DNA of 64,000 nt from NCBI GenBank assembly GCA_031213475.1, contig JARUPZ010000007.1, positions 8,551,586-8,615,585 of the forward strand, written 5' to 3'. The position numbers and the translations under genes are program-made. Position 1 is the stretch's first letter, and each line of letters opens with the position of its first letter. Shown here in pieces: positions 1,000 through 58,900 of this stretch. The notes beneath the pieces were generated by a model that saw nothing but the letters and a program-made list of their open reading frames with translations, ran no database searches and was not told where the DNA came from. Source of the DNA: Nereocystis luetkeana. Its lineage: Eukaryota > Sar > Phaeophyceae > Laminariales > Laminariaceae.

Positions 1000-3900
1000 G
1001 TGAGTGCATCCGGACGAGCTGCGTGGCCCGCCGCTGTTTTTGTTCCTGCACGTCCGCGTGGCCCGCCGCTGCTGGCTTTGCTGTACACGCTCTCTACAAC
1101 AGGTAAACCAGTTTTACCGCACACCGCACATGACCTGGTATGGGTATACTGAGCACTATGTTCTTCTTTGCAAGCCATCGATGAATCATGTCATGCTCGA
1201 CACTTATTCGTGATGTCGTGATAGGACCCTCCCGCTAAGTCGTCCTCCTCACACCACTGCCGTAATCGTGGCTCGCCGTACAGCAGTGGTGAGATGTCCA
1301 GTTTGCGCCCGCTACGTAGTTTTGGCGATAGGATCAGCCCTCGTACATACGTACCAGGTACGAAGCTGGTAAAATAGCCAAAAAGGACGGAGGTTGATAC
1401 TTGCGCCGCATCCCGCGACTCGTCGGCCTATACGTGTTACCTCGTAGCTGGAATTCTCGTTTTTCATGGGTGTGCAATTTCTGCGCTTCTAACTCAGGAG
1501 GCCCTTGTGCATACATCATCCGTGGCGCACCTGGTGGACTCGTGCCGCACGTAGTCACAATGAGGCACACGGAGTCTAAAAGTATGCTACTTTTACAGCT
1601 TGTTCCACACATACCAGGTACACAGATACACAGCCTTCAAGCGGACAGACCCAAAAAGTCCCACAAGCGACGCACCTGGTATTAAATCGTAGCAGGCCAT
1701 ACACTCGGACTCCTCTGTTTTCTGCCTGGAGACAAGAGAGTACCAGGTACGCAGCTGCTGTACTGCTTTGCAGTCAGTGGTTTCCTTCTCAGTGTACGCA
1801 CATGTGCTGGTACAGGTACGTGTGTATACCTGGTACCTGGTCAGCTTCTTGTCGAGAGTGCTTCCCCGAGTCCAGTACGTACGAACATACCCAAGGGTAT
1901 CCGGGATCACCGTGATCACAGCCCTCTCTCGGCACCAACCAGCACACCGTGAAACAGGAGGGTGTTCCATGCATTCAGTATGTTCGGTATGCTACTCTGT
2001 ACGTAAACACAGACAGCGCGGTAGGATGCAGCAACGCAGCAACCATTCGGCTGCAATGGTCGCCACGGTGGTTCAAGTGGTTAACCCTTTTAGAACTCCA
2101 GTCCCGTCTTGGGGACACACCAGTCAAATTCCAAGTAGTTTGTCCCAAATTGTCCCCAAAACGAGACTGCGGTCCTAAAAGGGTTAACCTCGAATTCTTC
2201 TTTCGTTTGAGTCCTGGGTTCGAGCCCCAGGTGGGTCGGACTTTGACTTTATTTGCCAAAATAAAAAAGGATTCAATTGTTGAGAGCGCCTTGCGGCGTG
2301 GGTAGGCACAATTCGATGCGAGTCGACGAGGGAAGAAAAGGCTGAAATCTTCTCGCGATAAAAATGAAGGCACGTACCGTAGTGGGAAGGGGGTAGAAGA
2401 GCCTGCCATGTGACCCCGGATCTGAGTTACGAGTTGGAAGGAGAGAGAGAAGAGGATGGGCGAAGATAATAAATGGGATGAGCAAACAAAAAAAAAAAAT
2501 GCTGCTGCTGAGAAGACCGGGTACATACGTACGTGCTTCTTACAGCAATATTCAGCAGAAAAGGACGGAAGCCAAAAGGTTCTCTCGTTTGTTTGGCCTG
2601 CTGGACAACAAATGAAGTCATGTTGAGGTTGTTGCTGTCTCCAGTTCAGGATCTGCGTACCTAACAGGGTTCTTGTATAGTTTATCTTCCTCTCCTTCGT
2701 GTTGCTTCGTCTGTGCAGCAGCTATCTGTCCTCCCTGAGTACGTACGTATCATATCCCCTCTATATACGTGTAGAGCCGGTCGCCCCGGTGGTTCAAGTG
2801 GTTAACCTCGAATTCTACTTGTTTGAGTCCTGGGTTCGAGCCCCAGGTGGGTCGGACTTTGACTTTATTTGCAAAATAAAAATAAAAAGGATTCAATTGT
2901 TGAGAGCGCCTTGCAGCGTGGGTAGGCACAATTCGATGCGAGTCGACGAGGGAAGAAAAGGCTGAAATCTTCTCGCGATAAAAATGAAGGCACGTACCGT
3001 AGCGGGAAGGGGGGAGAAGAGCCTGCTATGTGACCCCCGATCTGAGTTACGAGTTGGAAGGAGAGAGAGAAAAGGATGGGCGATCCGTCGGAGGATTAAA
3101 AAAAAAAAAAAAAAAAAAGATGGGCGAAGATAATAAATGGGATGAGCAAAAAAAAAAAAAAAAAAAAGCAGCCTTTCTGTTTCTGATTTCTGATCCCTTC
3201 CGTCGTTTGTAGTCTGTTTCAAATCAGAATTTATTTTGTTTTATTGTATTTTGTCCTGTTATGTTCTCGTCTTGCTTGTGCAGTTGTGTTCTCGTACCCG
3301 GTACTCTGGCGTTTCACTTGCTTGACCCTTGAATTTGCGATTACTTTTTGATTTGGTCTTGCTCTATCATACGTACGAGTATCTCACAAACAGTCTGACC
3401 ACAGAATCAGTATCTCTACTGTCTAGGACAAGGAATCAGGACGGACACTGGGTGTACTGATGAAGCTGGGTAGAAAGGACGATTTCATGTGTGAAGACAC
3501 CCCACGCTCGTTGAATTCTGCAGCTCCAGCTTTTGCCTTCCTCGTGTATACGCATACAAAATGTATATCCTGTGAAACCCTACAAAATACGCACTACGCG
3601 CGATCGAAGCATCACACACAGAGCAGTGCATAGCTTGCGAAAATAAGTTTCGACGAAGTCCTCGATCTCAAGAGCTGTTTTTTTTTTTAGAAATTTACTT
3701 TGAACTTGAGCTAACTTGATTCGCTTACCAGATGCCAGGTACTGCTGCTCTGCTGGGACACATACTTGTGTTTGATGTTTGGAGGCATCGCATTTCTTTG
3801 GATATGTCGTTTCTTTTTTTCACTCCCGGTTCGTGCATGCTCTCGCACGAACCCTGAGTGTGCTGGACGTCGTCGGGCAGAAATGACGAAATTAGTTCTG

Positions 3901-55900: not shown

Positions 55901-58900
55901 AGTATCTACTCTGGCGCCCCCCCCCGTTGGCAGCTCTAAATCTTCTAGACCGTCCTCGCGGAACCGCCTGCTCGGCACGAAATTATCTTGGCCGTACCAA
56001 GCCTGAGACCACCTCGACGCGGGGTGGTGCAGAGTGCGAACAACGACCATGGTGCTGTATAAACCGCTGTGACCGTACATACCTGGTAGAAAACAAGACA
56101 CAGCAGGACAGCAGGACACATCACAACAACTATTTAATAACTGAAGCACGTCGCACACCCCAAAGAAGAAACAAAAACAACGTGAAACCAGCGTACGGAT
56201 GCATGCATTCGTAAATACGTATTTTCACGTACAACGTACGAGTACAGAGTTTATACGTTCATACAGAACAATTTCAACCGAGGGAGGGCAGACGCATACA
56301 GAGAGAAACAACAGAGTGTACGTATGGTCTCTCTGATTGGTTCAACGTTGGCCAAAATCAGTTGAAAGCTAGACAGGGTAGAAAAAAACAGGTTTACCTT
56401 GGCCTTTTCGAGCCAAAATCAGTTACAATGTCAGCCTGGCCAATAGGAGGGCTCCTGGGGTGTGTTTTGTACTCGTTTTTAGCATGTAACATGATTTTGG
56501 CCGAAAAGTGGCCAGGCATACCTGTTTTTGGCAAAAAACCTTAATATTAACACTGTATTACGTACCAGGTACTGCTGTGTTTTGGTTGGCGTTTTCGGCC
56601 GTCTTGAGCCTGATGTTCTGCAGATATACGCGTAGCTAGCTGTCTTTTGTTCCCGTCTCGCCCCCATGGCTTCGTCCTGTGGGTTTGTTCCACAGTAGCG
56701 GCAGCAGCAGTAGCAGTAGTCTAAACGTCTGCCACTCTGGACCGCAATGTAAAGGCAGTTCAGAAACTACTATGAATACTAAGCGGCCATTATATTTACG
56801 CCCATAGCAGTGGTGTTAACACCGCCAGATGCCGATGTACCGAATCCCCTTTTTGCCACCTGGAAAATGTCAGTGCTCTTCACGGTTCAAGGTCGAGTCG
56901 GGCCGGGTCGGGTCGGGCCGGGTCGGGCCGGGTCGGGTCGGGTCGGGTCGGGTCGGGTCGGGTCGGGTCGGGTCGGGTCGGGTCGGGTCAGGAGGTTTTC
57001 AAAATCTCAAGGGTCGGCCAGGTCACCCTCACCCGACCCGACCCGACCCGGCCCGACCGGCGAGGTTTGACGTGACCCTTGAACGGTCGTGAGGGACTGC
57101 CCCAGTCAAATTTCAGGTGCTTTGTCTCCGAAGCGCGCCTGCTGTTCTCCATATGAGGGTTACATCCCAAAAATATTTCTATTACGAGGGACCATAGTTA
57201 ATAGGACCAAATATTGTTAGTAAAAATGGGTAAATATATAGGTTTTTATGTATACCATAGGTCCTATTAACTATGGCCCCCCGTAGTATTAATAGTGTTT
57301 TCGCAACTTGATCTTGTACAGCGGTACGACTATCAATAGGACTGTTTTTTCGCGCGTCCGTCTGGCCTTACAATTTGTGTCGCCTCCCCTCCCCCCTCCC
57401 TCACCCACGATGTTGTTTGTCGCTGTACCCGCAGACGCCCCAGCAACGGGGTTTCCCCGCGACCCTGTCGCTTGGAGCCCCTCGCCATCGACCAGATACC
57501 GACGGTTACACTACGAAGGGAGATGTGGACGTCTCCTGCGAGGTACGTGTCGTACGGGTATTTTGGTACGATCATGAAATGTTGGTGATATTCGTACATG
57601 CGGATGGTGTTGGTGTTGTTGTTGTTGTTGTTCGTGTTGTTCGTGTTGTTGGTGGTGGTGTTGGTGTTGGGTGTTGGTGTTGGTGGCGTTGTTGGTGTTG
57701 GTACTGTTGGTGGTGGTGGGTAGTGTTGTTGTTGTTGTTGTTGTTGTTGTTGGTGTTGTTGTTGTTGTTTGTGTTTGTGTTGGTGTTGGTGTTGGCGTTG
57801 GCGTTGGTGTTGGTGTTGGTGTTGGGTGTTGGTGGTGGTGGCGTTGTTGGTGTTGGTACTGTTGCTGTTGCTGGTGTTGCTGTTGCTGTTGTTGTTGTTT
57901 CGAGGTGGGGGTAATCCTTACGTAACTCCTGGTGCTATTGAGTGGACGTTGGCGCGATTGCTTTTCTCCGTGTTCTGATGTGGCTGTGCGTTGACAGTTG
58001 ACACGCGTGATCGTACATGTGCTCGTGTGTCTGGCTCACGGCCCGGTTACTGAAAACCAAACTCCATACCAGGTACGCCTCTTGTGTGAATGCGCTCTTT
58101 GCCTTGATATATATATATTTTTTGGGAGGGGAGGGGGGACGCGGACGCGTGGCGAAAGCGGCAGATATTTTACACCCGCTCGCGCGCGTGTTTGCCCAAC
58201 GGACGCTGGCTGGCGCCTGGCTCGTTGTTCCGGCAAGGTCAAGCGCTTCGCCTCGCTGGGCGGCGCGGCGCGCCTCGCCGGGTCACGCAGCCGCATCGCC
58301 CAGGGAGAAGATTCGTTCTCCCCGATCTGTTGTCTGCTGCATGCGCTGTATGTTCCACACGTGATTGTTGTGGCAGGCATGCCCACGCGGGCACAGTCGC
58401 CGCTCACCAAGGACAGGCGGAATCGCGGATAGCACTTCAACCTCAACATCAGCAGACTCTTACTTGCTAACTATGTAGGCTACGGGTGGGAAAAATTATT
58501 TCAATGATTAATGACTTGCGTCAGTGCCTAATTACCAATACTTGTTCGTTCCCTGTCGAATCACGGAAGAACAACAAAAAACAATTCCTCCTTCCCCCCC
58601 CCCTCGGGCGCTCCGCGTTTGGCGCAAGCAATGTCTGCCGGCTCGGTAAAAACCCGATGTTTCCCCGTACCGACATTGTAGGGATGCGAGCGTCTATGGT
58701 CATACGGCTAGGGCCATGCATGATGTTGAGCACCCCCCCCCCCCCCCCCCCCCGCGCGCTTCCGCGAAAAACGTCGTCCCCTCCCCGATCAGGTTAAAGA
58801 AGTACCCCACGCGGAAGAATGCGTTGGGGACCTCGTTGACGCACTCGATTCGCGAAAAGGCGTTTTGCTCACATCGTCTTACGAGTTTCCCGGCCGCTAC

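Follow-up and report, generated by a model that had tools for sequence, protein, structure and literature searches.

In the Tc1/mariner superfamily, the transposase cleaves the non-transferred strand a few bases into the element, such that 3' overhangs are left and are end-joined into a scar between duplicated TA dinucleotides (PMC8151067, PMC3878927). The scars of Sleeping Beauty and Frog Prince read C(A/T)GTA (PMC3878927 Table 1). Those of Stowaway retain 2-4 bp beside the 5' TA and 1-2 bp beside the 3' TA, and the record also includes the retention of five or six bases, TACTC...AGTA and TACTCC...AGTA, as well as an element that had inserted again at a TA belonging to an older scar (PMC1925063). 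In the work described in PMC3878927, PMC8151067, PMC1925063 and PMC9976928, footprints of this kind were examined in individual genes or with the help of plasmid assays. Described here is a 64-kb stretch of DNA, the window, in which the nine-base sequence TACCWGGTA (W, A or T) occurs as 34 dispersed sites. These sites are probably the excision footprints of a TA-targeting, Tc1/mariner-like cut-and-paste transposon.

Number and sequence of the sites

All counts refer to this one window. The 34 starts given in an earlier reading of the window, the original prediction, are all exact matches to TACCWGGTA, and the window contains no further ones. The chance expectation of about 0.5 given there agrees with dinucleotide shuffles (mean 0.48, sd 0.73, maximum 3, n=100), and Markov simulations of order 2, 3 and 4 (60 each) give 0.35, 0.47 and 1.03 expected sites, versus 34. 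On the + strand, 19 sites read TACCAGGTA and 15 read TACCTGGTA; given that the two are reverse-complementary, they are a single sequence in two orientations. The centre of TACCNGG-TA (N, any base) is A or T in 34 cases and G or C (S) in 2.

Among 9-mers that occur at least 8 times and contain at least 5 different dinucleotides, TACCWGGTA ranks highest. Of the TA-N5-TA words, CCWGG leads in the ranking score applied (34 vs 0.47 expected); the next word, GTTAA, has a ratio above that of CCWGG (11 vs 0.10) and, by a reading of the alignment, is sequence of a miniature inverted-repeat transposable element (MITE). The sites fall at 30 independent targets, at which common flanking sequence extends no more than about 2 bases. 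They are therefore not copies of one longer repeat, and a single long repeat as their source is ruled out. The same short insert, which consists of a duplicated TA and five further bases, is present 34 times. The sites, and the MITE copies with related gains, are as follows.

1352..1360, TACCAGGTA, exact match
1612..1620, TACCAGGTA, exact match
1741..1749, TACCAGGTA, exact match
1827..1840, TACCTGGTA, then a second CCTGG with the outer TA reading TC
4585..4600, chain of two in opposite orientation (starts 4585/4592)
7299..7307, TACCAGGTA, its right TA being the left TA of MITE copy 7306-7417
11513..11521, TACCTGGTA, exact match
14515..14523, TACCTGGTA, exact match
18697..18705, TACCAGGTA, exact match
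26747..26865, - strand, MITE copy with a gain of 6 bp at 26796-26803 that reads TACCAGTA on the + strand
27640..27755, + strand, MITE copy with a clean gain of 7 bp that forms TACCAGGTA at 27725-27733
27943..27951, TACCAGGTA, exact match
35979..35987, TACCAGGTA, left TA common with TACCCGGTA at 35972
38474..38489, TACCTGGTA, then degenerate TACCTGATA
39501..39529, chain of three exact sites (centres T, T, A) plus TACTGGTA
41099..41107, TACCAGGTA, exact match
44451..44459, TACCTGGTA, exact match
44868..44986, + strand, MITE copy with 7-bp gain TACCTAGTA at 44927-44935
45264..45272, TACCAGGTA, exact match
45294..45302, TACCTGGTA, exact match
45436..45444, TACCAGGTA, exact match
47432..47440, TACCTGGTA, located where a dispersed repeat ends in a TA-rich tail; paralogue near 27449 without the site (weak alignment)
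47744..47752, TACCTGGTA, exact match
49786..49801, chain of two in opposite orientation (starts 49786/49793)
49827..49835, TACCAGGTA, left TA common with TACTGCTGTA at 49819
51558..51566, TACCTGGTA, left TA common with TACTGTA at 51553
53707..53715, TACCAGGTA, exact match
54434..54442, TACCTGGTA, exact match
55527..55535, TACCAGGTA, exact match
56080..56088, TACCTGGTA, exact match
56563..56571, TACCAGGTA, exact match
58067..58075, TACCAGGTA, exact match

Insertion at TA

The window contains a MITE family, about 115 bp long, whose ends are TTACGGGGG (also given as TTACGGGGGACCATAG) and which duplicates TA. Thirteen copies were aligned (7306-7417, 8205-8312, 26133-26235, 26568-26679, 26747-26865, 27640-27755, 39566-39680, 39758-39872, 43214-43325, 44127-44232, 44868-44986, 49606-49725 and 57180-57291), and a fragment near 62017-62047 was omitted. 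The 7-bp gain that the original prediction had noted in the MITE at 27642 is borne out by this alignment: TA has become TACCAGGTA in one of the 13 copies, and the gain is absent in the other 12. The 27640 copy diverges by 2.8% from the family consensus, the lowest value among the 13, such that its gain is recent on the family's scale.

Close variants of this gain are found in two other copies. Copy 44868 has gained TACCTAGTA at 44927, which is 7 bp long and one substitution off TACCTGGTA, and copy 26747 has a 6-bp gain at 26796 (TACCAGTA on the + strand, TACTGGTA in MITE orientation), one base short of the motif. Both gains sit at one common TA of the MITE. Comparison of the copies suggests that separate gains are more likely than one inherited gain, because the five nearest relatives of the 26747 copy (91.7-94.5% identity) are without its gain. 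A paralogous stretch near 45080, compared by eye, reads straight across a single TA and represents an empty site for the 26747 MITE copy. Copy 49606 has two other short gains relative to its sisters, CATA (TA-CA-TA) at 49623 and AGGTA at 49689.

The flanks of all 30 targets were also joined into empty sites and compared with the window. Clean paralogous empty copies were found for 27725 only. A weak match in a TA-rich tail was found for 47432, a match solely across the adjoining MITE for 7299, and a 22-base match at E 0.12 for 56080; the remaining 26 targets gave no match spanning the junction. Insertion at TA with TA duplication, as expected of a Tc1/mariner element, is supported directly by few cases, namely the 27640 copy and the two variant gains.

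Chains and clustering

Exact sites adjoin through a common TA in four pairs (4585/4592, 39501/39508, 39508/39515 and 49786/49793), three of which are in opposite orientation, the exception being 39501/39508. The triple chain reported at 39501 is present and extends by one further step, to read TA-CCTGG-TA-CCTGG-TA-CCAGG-TA-CTGG-TA. If 34 random targets are drawn with the observed context weights, the mean number of same-site pairs is 0.32, and at least four occur in 0.015% of 20,000 draws. Because the draw model counts one TA per scar, this expectation is understated; a fairer figure is estimated at about 0.6-0.8, relative to which four pairs are still high. Of the spacings between sites, 12 of 33 are under 350 bp, versus 6.9 expected (P 0.018), a mild clustering that would fit local hopping.

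Proposed excision mechanism

The source of the scars would be a transposon, autonomous or of the MITE type, that targets TA, duplicates it on insertion and has ends that begin 5'-CCAGG. At each end, the transposase would cleave the 3' terminus flush with the TA and the opposite strand five nucleotides into the element, so that each flank would keep a 3' overhang of CCAGG beyond its TA. Two such overhangs could anneal by four G.C pairs, two on either side of a central A.A mismatch, and end joining followed by mismatch repair would result in TA-CCAGG-TA or TA-CCTGG-TA, a gain of 7 bp. Fresh rounds of insertion and excision at the TA of an existing scar would generate chains. The transposon, its ends, the 5-nucleotide (nt) stagger and the end joining are what we infer from the sites. 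A W-centred palindrome is the expected residue of a self-pairing overhang, and the core in the window is a palindrome with 34 W centres versus 2 S.

The original prediction had described the core as 3+2 retained bases. This geometry has a parallel in Stowaway scars, but a stagger of 5 nt, with a CCAGG overhang, is preferred, because the core is uniform and because TACCATGGTA, which would result if two CCA overhangs were simply filled in and joined, has 0 occurrences in the window. As an alternative, 3-nt CCA overhangs that overlap by one base (3+2) would yield the same product. The ends of the mariner element Mos1 begin with CCAGG, the bases required by the window scar, and Mos1 leaves three bases, not five; no sequence resembling Mos1 was noticed in the window, where no search was aimed at it. 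More tentatively, a transposon whose CCWGG stagger is uniformly 5 nt might survive almost only as scars, with hardly any resident element, either as a hyperactive low-copy wanderer or as a family purged by excision.

Comparison with known scars

Like the scars of Sleeping Beauty and Frog Prince, for which 3' overhangs are joined by end joining, the window sites combine a duplicated TA with a short palindrome of odd length and an A/T centre (PMC3878927, PMC8151067). The Sleeping Beauty overhang, CAG, is read here as self-pairing except for a central A.A mismatch. Relative to the Sleeping Beauty scar TA-C(A/T)G-TA, the window scar keeps five bases rather than three, with one more G.C pair per side, and it differs from both systems in that no element or transposase is seen in the window. 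The scars of Stowaway MITE/Osmar5 in the beta-amylase and DMC1 genes of Triticeae also consist of terminal inverted repeat fragments between duplicated TAs, but those described are lineage-variable and non-palindromic, whereas one palindromic five-base core dominates at 30 places in the window (PMC1925063). Unusual features are the uniformity of this core and the absence of any element from a window with 30 independent targets.

Since five- and six-base scars and re-insertion are on record for Stowaway (PMC1925063), both the length of the window scar and the chains have precedent, and length alone does not exclude the sites from the Tc1/mariner superfamily. The sites are nevertheless not filed as Tc1/mariner, because the dominant core, 5 nt at 34 sites, exceeds that expected of 2-3-nt 3' overhangs, and neither inverted repeats starting with the footprint bases nor a transposase was found within the window.

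The brown alga Ectocarpus has 17 Mariner-Tc1 families with 11,912 copies and abundant Mariner-Tc1 MITEs (PMC12477816). Should the window be of brown-algal origin, this is a possible host context and the survey would be the natural place to seek the source element; its main text does not contain the word 'footprint'. In the literature searched, the strings TACCAGGTA and TACCTGGTA were not found as whole words, and no report was found that joins brown alga, transposon and excision footprint. Among the matches listed, Ectocarpus and 'footprint' occur together only in PMC6027523 and PMC10210449, on sex chromosomes and sex-biased expression, neither with 'transposon excision'. A broader search of the footprint literature gave no match mentioning 'brown algae' among those listed.

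Flanking bases and near-variants

A purine (R) precedes and a pyrimidine (Y) follows 28 of the 34 sites, or 24 of the 30 independent targets, versus 1135 of 3178 TA sites in the window. These RTAY flanks lengthen the palindrome to 11 bp, RTACCWGGTAY. Variants with a core substitution number 10 (5.3-5.7 expected), those substituted within the TAs 15 (5.5-10.8 expected) and those with a one-base insertion 2 (about 2 expected), while CWG lies between TAs 14 times (6.65 expected).

Other short words are enriched as well. TACGAGTA/TACTCGTA occurs at ten places from 3374 to 56237 (10 vs 1.82 expected) and is possibly a second scar family, with 4 bases. TACAGCAGTA/TACTGCTGTA occurs 6 times vs 0.11 expected, at 4765, 26488, 38149, 48873, 49772 and 49819, and TACGACTA has 9 sites vs 0.92 expected, 5 of the 9 within one repeat family. 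CAGCAG or CTGCTG directly abuts TACCWGGTA at 45294, 49827 and 56563.

Excision and alternative origins

The excision reading put forward in the original prediction is the best fit to the insertion at TA, as seen in the three MITE gains, and to the chains of mixed orientation, but no element with such ends is present in the window. This absence is one of several points that weigh against excision. As the original prediction had also observed, no full-length element is visible, and none with CCWGG ends was found in the 64 kb. One-sided TACCWGG sites number 23, versus 16 with an S centre, and inspection by eye of all 39 one-sided TACCNGG sites revealed no pair with common inner sequence. No transposase domain was found at curated Pfam cut-offs in the scanned frames, which were whole frames except for the + strand at about 35-45 kb, the third + frame at 1-15 kb, the third - frame at 11-24 kb and the - strand at about 10-11 kb; a transposase gene could also lie at a distance. 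Only one of the 34 exact sites is cleanly comparable with empty copies, and the identities of the 44868 copy, 89.0% to the 39566 and 27640 copies and 88.1% to the 26747 copy, differ by one column in 109, which makes the independence test weak for its gain. The RTAY flanks are equally expected of a binding motif, and the three MITE gains, at cTAt and aTAg, lie outside that context. One-base-shorter variants number 14 vs 4.2-5.5 expected, although 5 of the 14 have RTAY flanks, the background rate, so that most of them are probably background. Known Tc1/mariner overhangs are 2 or 3 bp (PMC3878927), and the footprints of the pogo-type element Passer are 0-4 bp (PMC9976928).

Another insertion process might leave 7 bp at TA without excision, for instance through aborted or one-ended transposition or a captured transposon-end fragment. 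Such a process would account for TA insertion with no longer element found, yet it is unlikely, given that the palindromic form and the W centre both follow from the footprint model. We know of no process that yields a uniform, near-palindromic 7-bp product, no search for one having been made.

The main rival outside DNA insertion is that RTACCWGGTAY is a putative palindromic protein-binding or structural motif, kept or spread by the host. The 11-bp palindrome formed with the R and Y flanks, the small number of core substitutions and the position of the three MITE gains outside the RTAY context would suit such a motif. It is nonetheless improbable, since the visible origins of the sites are 6-7-bp gains at TA rather than point mutations, the chains share TAs in mixed orientation, the density is about one site per 1.9 kb, and the flanking bases may also reflect an insertion preference.

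If a 7-bp unit had slipped or expanded, starting from a few seeds, this would explain four adjacent pairs at a 7-bp period, one of them in the same orientation, but most sites are single and dispersed and three of the four pairs are in opposite orientation, which is not a product of slippage, making this origin very improbable. Chance or base-composition bias, for which no supporting point was found, is refuted by the shuffle and Markov controls, in which 0 of 100 shuffles reach 34 and the order-4 mean is 1.03, and can be set aside.

Other repeats and searches

A second repeat family in the window is palindromic (GGACTGCAGTCCCGTTTTGGGGAC...), with copies of about 70-110 bp at 2081-2190, 6760-6850, 10354-10458, 35578-35678, 41334-41415, 42953-43025, 45127-45219, 46380-46455 and 50033-50130. 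A dispersed repeat of about 350 bp, with 91-95% identity, is found at 2182-2499, 2775-3121, 38903-39256 and 45520-45869; its start looks like that of a transfer RNA (tRNA) (ccccggtggttcgagtggttaacc), and it is possibly a short interspersed nuclear element. Scans of the window for tRNA (ARAGORN) and with Rfam found none. Imperfect GGGTTA repeats at 54032-54082 (8.7 copies) resemble an interstitial TTAGGG telomere repeat, and the window also contains long open reading frames rich in poly-G/A/S as well as poly-G tracts, a composition that may hint at a brown alga. Two protein searches, in which the 7987 best candidates and 211 candidates respectively were scored, gave no match that would point to the host.

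Sub-threshold Pfam matches to CPSase_L_D2 (0.018), SOG2 (0.014) and Membralin (0.019) were disregarded as below cut-off, and a match of P0003 to one PDB linker chain (0.0003), which lies partly in a glycine-rich stretch, was taken as low complexity. The pattern TACCWGGTACCWGGTA matched 9 stretches of viral contigs with 2-3 TACCWGGTA each; two TACCWGGTA per match are the pattern itself, and these stretches therefore do not form a family. Patterns for the MITE, the repeats and the triple chain were sought in other contig collections and gave 0 matches outside one genome contig. That match, of the MITE pattern (L010:1-114), lies at the start of contig JALZVB010000211.1 of a Saprospiraceae metagenome-assembled genome, a contig without TACCWGGTA, and is probably assembly carry-over from a host sample. 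No mention of this accession was found in the literature searched, and a phage search with one MITE copy gave no match.

Significance

With its uniform five-base core and about 30 independent scars and no element in view, this set of sites is a notable variant and not an ordinary footprint. If the excision reading is true, a uniform scar at 30 places without an adjacent element would be a record of transposon traffic, and one that repeat annotation likely overlooks, as scars of such small size escape masking. Such scars would serve as a count of excisions and as a marker of germline end-joining repair, and would be a source of 7-bp frameshifting insertions. A 5-nt stagger, if right, would be longer than the 2-3 nt usually given for Tc1/mariner transposases. 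If the window is typical, there would be about one footprint per 2 kb, which by extrapolation would amount to on the order of 100,000 per 200-Mb genome.

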